This document shows positions 15,334-37,394 of a DNA stretch of 41,177 nucleotides, in pieces. The notes below the pieces were generated by a model. The model was not told the origin of the DNA and did no database searches. It saw only the letters and a program-made list of their open reading frames with translations. A program made the position numbers and the translations under genes. The DNA comes from Candidatus Blackburnbacteria bacterium (GTDB taxonomy: Bacteria; Patescibacteriota; Microgenomatia; UBA8517; UBA10165): contig JACPEJ010000004.1 in NCBI GenBank assembly GCA_016183565.1, forward strand, positions 1 through 41,177. Direction: 5' to 3'. The number at the start of each line of letters is the position of its first letter. Position 1 is the stretch's first letter.

Positions 15334-15624
15334 TTAGGTTTGGTTTTTAATTTTCTTATTGTGTTCATCTTTTAGTTGTTTCAGCTTCCACATAAACAGT
15401 TTGGGTGGGTGGTTTGCTTTTGAGTCTTTGACAAAATATCTTGCTTGCTCAAGAAGTTGTCTGGGAGTATTTTTTGCAAGTCGCATATAGAGACTTTTGT
15501 GTTCTATATCGCCTAATTCTTGAGCCAAATCATAAGCGTACTTTTGAAACTCGCGCGATATGTACCTATCTTGCGTTGGATCAAATCGTTTAAGTACGTT
15601 TTTTATGGGGTCAAAATCGCTCAT
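15334..15624 (-). CDS. Small conserved-type protein of unknown function
   Basis: This is a 96-aa basic, helical, soluble protein. It has a KSLYMRLAKNTPRQLLEQA stretch that looks like a helical nucleic-acid- or protein-binding segment, but no family is recognised. The start overlaps the end of pth by 14 bp, and the CvpA-CAP gene follows after 12 bp, so it is translationally coupled in that operon. Confidence 0.75.
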   Translation of the reverse strand: MSDFDPIKNVLKRFDPTQDRYISREFQKYAYDLAQELGDIEHKSLYMRLAKNTPRQLLEQARYFVKDSKANHPPKLFMWKLKQLKDEHNKKIKNQT

Positions 15625-16144
15625 GAGAATAATTTTCTACGATTTCGCTTACCACTCTATCTACAACCCCCTTCTCATACTCAGTTAAATCCTCCAACAC
15701 ATATCTCTCGCCAGCTATCCTGTCGTCAGAAGCTCTATTGTCTACTCCAACTCTCACCCTCCAAAAGTCTCCAGTACCTAATGTGTCTTCTATAGATTGC
15801 AGGCCATAATGAAGTTTTGGTCCCTTCCCTTTTTGAATTTTGTATTCTCCTAACTTGATATCTAGATCATCGTGAATTACATACAGGTCTTCGGGGTTGA
15901 CCTTAAACCAGTTTATAAGTTTTGAAACAGCTTCCCCTGAATTATTCATAAATGTTTGGGGCTTGGCGAGTACGAGGTCTGCGGTCTCGGTTCTATAGAC
16001 TACAGCTTTTAGTTTTTTGTTTTCCACCCATTCTGCGTCACAGCAGATCGTGGACCGCAGTTTGTCGACTACCATAAAACCCACATTGTGGCGATTGTTT
16101 TTAAATTTTTCGCCAAGATTTCCTAGCCCAACAAGAAGTTTCAT
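15611..16144 (-). CDS. pth: Peptidyl-tRNA hydrolase
   Basis: This 177-aa enzyme releases peptides from peptidyl-tRNA that has dropped off ribosomes. The start KLLVGLGNLGEKFKNNRHNV contains the catalytic histidine in RHNVGF, and KPQTFMNNSGEAV and VIHDDLDIKLG are the next conserved blocks. The family's GGHNGLRSI block appears here as PKLHYGLQSI, so the Asn after the second conserved His is Tyr. GTATACT ends 7 nt before the ATG (6-bp match on the minus strand at 16157-16152), implying a leaderless message. It heads an operon with the 96-aa and CvpA-CAP genes. Confidence 0.95.
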   Translation of the reverse strand: MKLLVGLGNLGEKFKNNRHNVGFMVVDKLRSTICCDAEWVENKKLKAVVYRTETADLVLAKPQTFMNNSGEAVSKLINWFKVNPEDLYVIHDDLDIKLGEYKIQKGKGPKLHYGLQSIEDTLGTGDFWRVRVGVDNRASDDRIAGERYVLEDLTEYEKGVVDRVVSEIVENYSHERF

Positions 16145-33337: not shown

Positions 33338-34729
33338 ATGGCGGAACAAATTGATGGGGGTGCTGGTTCGGGAGCCCTAAGGCCGACACCTGAAAACCCA
33401 AGCACGTATGCTTTTGCTGCGAAGGAGACGTGGAAACTAGTTGAAAGCGACAAATTTGCAAGGGGACTTGTAACAATCGTTAGGGGAAAAATGGAAAACT
33501 GGGAAGAAGATATTTACGAGTTACCGAGCACACGGAAGGTTGGTGAGCTTACACAAAAAGATGTGTCGGATGTTGTTGCCTGGGTTGCAAATTCAGACGA
33601 TTTTATCAATCTAAATGAGGTCAACAGTTGGCTGGAGCTAAAACTTTTGCGCGCCTTTGATACAGCATTTACCCAGGTTGGTAGGGTGGGTGAGCCACTT
33701 TATGGAAATTTATTCGGAGACTCGGCCAGATACAGGATTGCAAGAGACAAGTTGTTTGATGCAATTCGCCCTTATGTGACCTTAAACAAACGTCATCCTG
33801 TATGGCAAGAGATAAATTTTTGGGCAAATATTCCTGCGGCAGCCGGAGGACCACCACTTCAAGAAAAAGATGAGATGCTTGCCCGATACAGGTTTGAAAG
33901 AGTCGAGTATGGAAGTCTCGTTTTCTACTGTCCACAAGCTTATGAAGCTGTTTCAAAACAGCTTCTCCAATCTCGCAACGAGTTGTATGATCGCAAAATA
34001 CTTGAGGAGATCGTCAAGATTGACGGACAGATAAGACAATTAATGGGCAACAAGCTTGAGAGAAGAAAGCGGACTCACATACTTATTCCTCCTGAGGAAA
34101 AATATAGTCCGCGAGGGGCAGCAATTGATACGAGAGTAATCTTGCGTGCAGGGGAACATATATATCGAAATGCTGCTCACGAGCTTGTACACTCCCAGCT
34201 TGCTCAACTTTATGGTTACAGTAGTAGTGCTTCTGCAGCAGAGGGTGCCGCGATGTATTTTGCTAAAAAGGTACATCCTCGGGATCCCCTCAATGATTAT
34301 GCAACTTTCCCAATAGGGCAAGCGGAAATGGCACATGTTTTGCAGACTGATCCTTCCTTGGGTGTCTCACACACACAACTTCTTGAGAAGGCAGGCGCTC
34401 GGGGCAACTTGCCGGCTGGTATAACAGAGTACGAATATGCTTACAGATTCGGAGGTTTCTTGGCAGAGTATGTTGCCACTCACTTCGGAGTTGATGCTTA
34501 CCTTGCTTTCTACCAAAGGACTTGCTCACAAAATCTTTTCGATGGAAAGACCGGTAAACAGCTTATAAAAGACGGTGTAAAAGTTGCCGGTGTTGGCCAA
34601 AGAGAAATTAACTGGCAAGCGCTACGGGCTATGCTGGCAACTGTTGGCAAGGGTGGTACTACCCCAGAACAGATAGAGCAGGAATTTACGGTTTATATGA
34701 AAGGGAGATTGGGAGGCATGTTCCCTTGA
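33338..34729 (+). CDS. Putative HExxH zinc-peptidase-like protein
   Basis: This is a 463-aa protein without signal peptide. The motif AAHELVHSQLAQLYG (about residue 283) is followed about 18 residues later by AAEGAAMYFAKK, the HExxH plus E layout of gluzincin peptidases. A C-terminal YAYRFGGFLAEYVATHFGVD block is typical of peptidase-MA-like proteins. The N-terminal 200 residues are unrecognised. Residues about 201-217 are encoded by a compact copy of the double-hairpin repeat. TATACT ends 8 nt before the ATG. The substrate is unknown. Confidence 0.7.
   Translation: MAEQIDGGAGSGALRPTPENPSTYAFAAKETWKLVESDKFARGLVTIVRGKMENWEEDIYELPSTRKVGELTQKDVSDVVAWVANSDDFINLNEVNSWLELKLLRAFDTAFTQVGRVGEPLYGNLFGDSARYRIARDKLFDAIRPYVTLNKRHPVWQEINFWANIPAAAGGPPLQEKDEMLARYRFERVEYGSLVFYCPQAYEAVSKQLLQSRNELYDRKILEEIVKIDGQIRQLMGNKLERRKRTHILIPPEEKYSPRGAAIDTRVILRAGEHIYRNAAHELVHSQLAQLYGYSSSASAAEGAAMYFAKKVHPRDPLNDYATFPIGQAEMAHVLQTDPSLGVSHTQLLEKAGARGNLPAGITEYEYAYRFGGFLAEYVATHFGVDAYLAFYQRTCSQNLFDGKTGKQLIKDGVKVAGVGQREINWQALRAMLATVGKGGTTPEQIEQEFTVYMKGRLGGMFP
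33940..33988 (+). repeat. Double-hairpin repeat, 49-bp compact copy inside a gene
   Basis: Hairpin 1 (GAAGCTGTTTC and partner) is identical to the copies at 1144 and 37105, and the TTGTAT end is shared. Hairpin 2 is reduced to CTCG-CAA-CGAG, lacking the 32-nt loop. The reading frame is kept. Confidence 0.8.
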
Positions 34730-36952: not shown

Positions 36953-37394
36953 CTAAGCAAGCAGCATTGGAAGATGAAGGAGTCTGCGCCTTATTGGATC
37001 CAAAACAAAGCCTAAGGATTCAAGAGTTACTGCCCCAAGTAGCGTGCCATCTCCCTTTTTTCCAAAAACTACAGGAGATGCACCACGCTTTCCGTCAAGG
37101 ATAAATACAACTCGTTTCAAAACTTATAGATTAGTCTTGTTAAATTTTTTGAAACGAGGTTGGAGAAGCTGTTTTGAAACAGCTTCATAAAGCATCGCTT
37201 CTTTCTCTTATTATCTCTGAACCATCCGCCAAAATAAATTTCTCCTTAGAATGAGGACGCACACCCAGTCGTTTAAGAACTACTTCTGGAGCAACAGAAT
37301 ACACTGCACCAGAGTCAACTAAAAACTTGACCTTTTCTTTTTTCTTCGTGTTTGCAGGATTTATAACTTCTAGCTCCAACTCAGTTATACCCAT
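36953..37394 (-). pseudogene. Retropepsin-like aspartic protease gene disrupted by the 86-bp repeat
   Basis: The N-terminal part (37394-37191) encodes a clan AA aspartic protease start: KVKFLVDSGAVYSVAPEVVL with catalytic DSGA, then KFILADGSEIIRERSDA. The frame then enters the double-hairpin repeat (37105-37190) and stops. Beyond the repeat, in another phase, the remainder of the family follows: ILDGKRGASPVVFGKKGDG and TLLGAVTLESLGFVLDP, ending at a TAG at 36953. Removing 85 bp joins the halves as SDA-FILDG and restores one frame of about 119 codons, a normal length for this family. The gene is therefore most likely inactivated by insertion. Confidence 0.85.
37105..37190 (-). repeat. 86-bp double-hairpin repeat, copy 3 (disrupts the protease gene)
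   Basis: On the minus strand it has hairpin 1 GAAGCTGTTT/AAACAGCTTC, then TCCAA, arms CTCGTTTC/GAAACGAG with a 32-nt loop, and the TTGTAT end. The loop is about two-thirds identical to that of copy 1, and hairpin 1 is identical. Confidence 0.85.

Follow-up and report, generated by a model that had tools for sequence, protein, structure and literature searches.

Miniature inverted-repeat elements (MITEs) of the IS5 family are short, multicopy sequences without a transposase open reading frame (ORF) that carry IS5-type terminal inverted repeats, are flanked by a 3-bp duplication, and lie mostly between genes, all of which are properties shared by the repeat described here. In the sections of PMC10969869 drawn on here, known MITEs form hairpins, are located in AT-rich intergenic DNA, and in some cases are joined in frame to ORFs. 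Two other systems resemble the repeat in part. The REP/REPIN sequences of the RAYT (Y1) system are likewise small, hairpin-forming, dispersed, and non-autonomous, and the Rickettsia palindromic elements, to the extent that the same sections describe them, are small and palindromic and can sit in coding sequence, as one copy of the present repeat, at 33941-33988, does in frame. The mechanisms of Y1 transposition referred to below follow the parts of PMC6006769 and PMC8266576 that were used. A full-text literature search returned nothing joining "candidate phyla radiation" with "miniature inverted-repeat," and nothing retrieved in a wider literature search mentions Patescibacteria. The window analyzed here is the whole stretch of 41,177 nucleotides from Candidatus Blackburnbacteria bacterium, whose genome (G000) comprises 884,979 bases in 5 contigs and is 94% complete. 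We conclude with high confidence that the repeat found in it is a non-autonomous IS5-family (DDE) MITE with a 3-bp TAT duplication.

The element within a retropepsin-like protease gene

The initial annotation of the window had pointed to two copies of one repeat, at 1144-1229 and 37105-37190. Both are present, and each consists of TAT, a 79-bp body, and TAT (1145-1229 on the plus strand and 37105-37189 on the minus strand). The plus-strand body lies at 1148-1226 between TAT triplets at 1145-1147 and 1227-1229; the minus-strand body, at 37108-37186 within a retropepsin-like gene, is identical to it at 68 of 79 positions and is bounded by the target duplication, TAT on the minus strand, at 37105-37107 on the downstream side and 37187-37189 on the upstream side. 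Hairpin 1 of the minus-strand copy is its palindromic left end, GAAGCTGTTTCAAAACAGCTTC (37165-37186, minus strand), recognized from folding and from paired changes across relatives, and hairpin 2 together with the right end occupies 37108-37157 (minus strand), the reverse complement of which begins CAACTCGTTTCAAAAC and resembles the left end of related IS5 elements. The finer description given earlier also holds: the 22-nt first hairpin is the same in both copies, the second-hairpin arms CTCGTTTC/GAAACGAG were found in place, and the 32-nt loops, said to be about two-thirds alike, agree at 22 of 32 positions. Folded as single-stranded DNA, the 37105 copy has a z score of -7.25 relative to shuffles. 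A third copy in the window, overlooked in the initial annotation, is internally deleted to a 42-bp body (33944-33985, or 33941-33988 with its flanks, plus strand) and sits in frame within the ORF at 33338-34729. A lone end-like 18-mer at 15917-15934, inside the ORF at 15611-16144, agrees with an IS left end at 15 of 18 positions; it has no TAT at its edge and is probably a chance match.

The sequences on either side of the 37105 copy do encode, as had been proposed, the two halves of an aspartic protease of the retropepsin-like type. The upstream half (37190-37394, minus strand) contains DSGA and LADG motifs and resembles Pfam's Asp_protease_2 (E 9e-05) and gag-asp_proteas (E 1.2e-04) only weakly, under the curated cut-off in each case; the downstream half (36953-37104, minus strand) contains PVVFG and LLGAVTLESLG. 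A search with the downstream half found, in addition to the window's own genome, 13 places in 9 of 56 other genomes, and all 13 homologs are uninterrupted, with no such sequence at the junction. The spacing from A[DN]G to the conserved [FIL]G is 29 residues in each of the 13, five of which were missed by the script motif and counted by hand on the printed sequence; an ungapped alignment takes in eight. Removal of 82 bp from the window gene gives this spacing of 29 residues, whereas removal of 85 bp gives 28 and of 79 bp gives 30. The insertion that splits the gene is thus confirmed, but not its proposed length, because excision of 85 bp would leave the protein one residue short relative to all 13 homologs; since only 82 bp yields 29 residues, the insertion added the 79-bp body plus a 3-bp TAT duplication. 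Because 82 bp cannot be divided into whole codons, the two halves are now read in different frames, and the protease is presumably inactive.

Copies in the same genome and in relatives

A 131-nt query from the 37105 site identified 15 places in G000, which resolve into 12 copies or remnants. Nine of these retain both ends, with bodies of 79 or 88 bp; the others are the shortened copy at 33941-33988 and two that lack one end. The flanks of these copies are unrelated to each other, the element edges are exact, and ORF calling places most copies between genes or at gene edges. Multicopy spread and exact ends are direct observations, and together with the 13 uninterrupted protease homologs and the lack of a transposase ORF they bear out the earlier proposal of an inserted, mobile, non-autonomous element with no ORF. 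Elements of the same design were detected in G001, G004, G005, and G002, which belong to the same family, and in G016, G030, and G033 of the same order. The first scans, a BLAST search of 57 genomes that yielded 5 genomes and a covariance-model search of 281 that yielded 6, one of them a doubtful look-alike, missed G002, which contains four near-identical 79-bp copies. A 108-bp two-hairpin sequence in G239 (L049, 1501-1608) is flanked by TAA on both sides and reaches a model E-value of only 4.5e-4; its relation to the element family is uncertain.

Across the family, both ends and the TAT are constant and the middle is variable. Tabulated copies have bodies of 42-132 bp, 79 bp in most, and none contains a transposase ORF. 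The ends are shared exactly: all 29 two-ended copies in the table begin after YTAT and end in TAT. Because the model or pattern used to find some of them itself contains TAT, variants lacking it could be under-sampled. Two further G001 copies, in contigs C33 and C8, lie outside this table. The one in C33 (L126, near 6861) has an enlarged first hairpin and, like L051 (1501-1638), carries an extra stretch of about 50 nt with hairpins of its own in the first-hairpin loop, perhaps a nested element. The other (L178, near 29857) has a minimal 25-bp body, TAT-GAAGCTGTTTTGAAACGAGTTG-TAT, in which the ends look fused at the core. The G030 copy (L037, near 340-421; also L176, 4938-5022) lies directly against the start of a probable infA gene, and there the TAT of the duplication followed by G forms the ATG start codon.

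Hairpin 1 was analyzed for covariation in 12 distinct rows picked for equal length. In this set 98.3% of cells are paired, 5 of 10 pairs have changed on both sides, and none of 500 shuffles reaches the observed score. The stem is kept by paired changes across relatives, a pattern that homogenization of the inverted repeat could also produce.

The shortened copy at 33941-33988 adds 45 bp net, including one TAT, and hence about 15 residues (EAVSKQLLQSRNELY), to a predicted protein of 463 residues with a HELVH motif. At the thresholds used, this protein matches nothing in Pfam or NCBIfam, and it has a single homolog, in G001, among 56 other genomes. BLASTP against that homolog places 14 residues of the inserted segment opposite gaps within a local alignment that is poor, in keeping with the insertion of a peptide about 15 residues long. 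The copy is of interest as mobile-element DNA turning into an in-frame piece of protein.

IS5-family ends and candidate mobilizers

Exact-pattern scans of viral contigs gave no match, nor did the left-end exact pattern across genome contigs. The right-end pattern across genome contigs matched 9 stretches, two of which (L038 and L045) lack the element and look like chance. In a later right-end scan, 57 of 373 genomes contained matches; most of the single one-mismatch matches look like chance, because a reversed control also matches many genomes, and 20 of these places were inspected. This later scan led to the G002 element described next and to G187 and G295, each with 10 listed matches, which lie at contig ends, as multicopy insertion sequences typically do in short-read assemblies.

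Within the same family as the window genome, G002 contains a 448-bp element (G002:C15) that is bounded by GAACCCGTTTCAAAACT and AGTTTTGAAACCAGTAT and codes for a DDE transposase shortened by an internal deletion (PF01609, E 4.6e-13); no matching target duplication was detected around it. The G002 transposase protein matched 2 of 14 genomes, G002 itself and G042, and the G042 protein is a longer relative that scores 120.7 bits against an NCBIfam IS5 cut-off of 110. Searched against 361 genomes, the G042 protein matched 15. In two of these 15, elements of 938 bp (G011:C7) and 874 bp (G217:C21) have both ends, GAACCCGTTTCAAAACT and GAACCCATTTCAAAACT, and exact 3-bp duplications, ATT/ATT and TAT/TAT, respectively. 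Their transposase ORFs exceed the same cut-off at 158 and 111.5 bits, and both are open over 264 residues, with one TGA recorded in the search row for G011. G240 contains six mini-elements, five of 120 bp and one of 200, whose ends were paired by script; four of the six have exact 3-bp duplications (ATA twice, AGC, and CCT), and the pairs L171 and L172 have no matching duplication. The G312 element, which extends to the edge of its contig, likewise showed no matching duplication.

The element has two unequal terminal inverted repeats of about 16 bp, with a core, GTTTCAAAAC, that starts at base 7 from each end. The right end of the window copy agrees with the IS left end at 15 of 18 positions, equaled by 1 of 20,000 random 18-mers from the window, and for its left end and the IS right end the agreement is no better than 13 of 16. 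Correspondence is closer in the G002 copies, where the right end agrees with the IS left end at 16 of 18 positions and the left end with the G011 and G042 IS right ends at 16 of 16. Overall, 13-16 of 16 positions match in comparisons with IS right ends, and 14-16 of 18 in those with IS left ends. These end matches and the 3-bp duplications are directly observed in the relatives' IS5 elements, and the likely origin of the repeat's ends, newly proposed here from sequence comparison, is the IS5 family. An IS5-family DDE transposase acting in trans would recognize the GTTTCAAAAC cores of both ends and would insert the element at TAT targets with duplication of 3 bp, and one such event would have split the retropepsin-like protease gene. 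The partner transposase may since have been lost from G000 or may never have been resident. Two transposase queries found no IS5-type transposase in G000, G001, G004, or G005, genomes that are 94-96% complete, so the G000 copies were probably orphaned by an insertion sequence that has been lost or was only a visitor. Candidate parents reside in relatives and not in G000, and G002 holds a remnant. Two orphan ends in G000 and one in G004 were examined for an autonomous copy over about 20 kb of surrounding sequence, and no second end lies nearby.

TAT-flanked copies, taken alone, fit both a 3-bp TAT duplication and insertion without any target duplication. They would also suit a single-strand element of the Y1 HUH type (IS200/IS605 or REP-type) that is mobilized by a RAYT-like Y1 protein and inserts 3′ of YTAT. 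Hairpins at both ends, the one-sided, orientation-fixed YTAT target, the four Y1 genes of G000, and the presence of Y1 genes in all element-bearing genomes then known, compared with 28 of 57 relatives, speak for such a mobilizer, as did an early strand bias, with 21 of 29 copies on the C-rich strand (p = 0.012), that YTAT frequency does not explain. The bias faded, however, when only 1 of 5 further loci followed it, giving 22 of 34 (p = 0.06; L176 and L037, being one locus, were counted once). Replication-strand bias was dropped as support for single-strand transposition, and no bias is claimed. The Y1 mobilizer itself was rejected once G002, which has no Y1 match, showed four near-identical copies; G030, with one copy, has no Y1 match either. 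The flanks of the Y1 genes that were read, 27 of a set of 29 to which a 30th, the short fragment L092, did not belong, do not contain this element's ends, and the relatives' 3-bp duplications, which differ in sequence and accompany the same kind of ends, fit a DDE enzyme and not Y1. We regard a Y1 mobilizer as improbable. The four Y1 HUH (RAYT-like) genes of G000 are at G000:C3 447407, 565527, 607090, and 660526 (L033-L036), with flank palindromes unrelated to the element.

The identical TAT at both ends and the fixed orientation could also be produced by a site-specific tyrosine or serine recombinase that integrates circular copies at a TAT core common to element and target. This is very unlikely, because IS5-type ends and duplications account for the data with a named enzyme, and a 79-bp double-stranded circle is mechanically hard to form. 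Slimmer still is the prospect that the repeat is a conserved hairpin with a regulatory or terminator role that owes its spread to recombination and duplication and not to transposition. The location of most copies between genes or at gene edges and the paired changes in hairpin 1 would suit such a role, but one copy lies inside a protease that is uninterrupted in 13 of 13 homologs, flanks are unrelated and edges exact, and the same family includes, in G002, an element with like ends and a transposase fragment.

One feature is not expected of an ordinary transposon of the DDE type that duplicates 3 bp, and it counts against that reading. All 29 two-ended tabulated copies have a single orientation relative to YTAT, and none has ATA on the left, where orientation-indifferent insertion at TAT should place it in about half. 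The relatives' IS copies and mini-elements have varied duplicated triplets. A narrower form of the IS5-type MITE reading, to which we give a low but appreciable probability, is an orientation-locked MITE lineage with IS5-type ends, a left end that is now a palindrome kept by paired changes, and insertion in a single orientation at YTAT. Were it true, the transposase or another, unseen enzyme would distinguish between the two ends and recognize the target in an asymmetric manner, in contrast to an ordinary IS5-type enzyme.

Comparison with known systems

The window presents a clear instance of gene disruption, in a reduced (885-kb) genome, by a mobile element that carries no gene, and the copies described here document a family of short transposable elements in the candidate phyla radiation, bacteria in which such elements are little described. 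Rickettsia palindromic elements, as presented in the sections of PMC10969869 drawn on here, differ in that only 1 of 12 G000 copies of the present element is in frame, and that copy is internally deleted; the 79-bp form shifts the reading frame. From REP/REPIN sequences the element is set apart by having no GTAG-type foot kept across relatives, by not lying beside Y1 genes, by its occurrence in genomes with no Y1 match, and by likely parents of the DDE class. The IS5-family MITEs are closest, and bodies of 42-132 bp here compare with 874-938 bp for the insertion sequences of relatives. Even from these the element departs in three respects: it has no autonomous partner in the same genome, which is usual for such MITEs but not required; paired changes have preserved one of its ends as a palindrome; and its insertion at YTAT is fixed in orientation in all tabulated copies. 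Because hairpin-forming, ORF-fusing MITEs are well known, the element is new only as a further MITE, and the underlying process is an ordinary one, that of a common kind of genetic hitchhiker.
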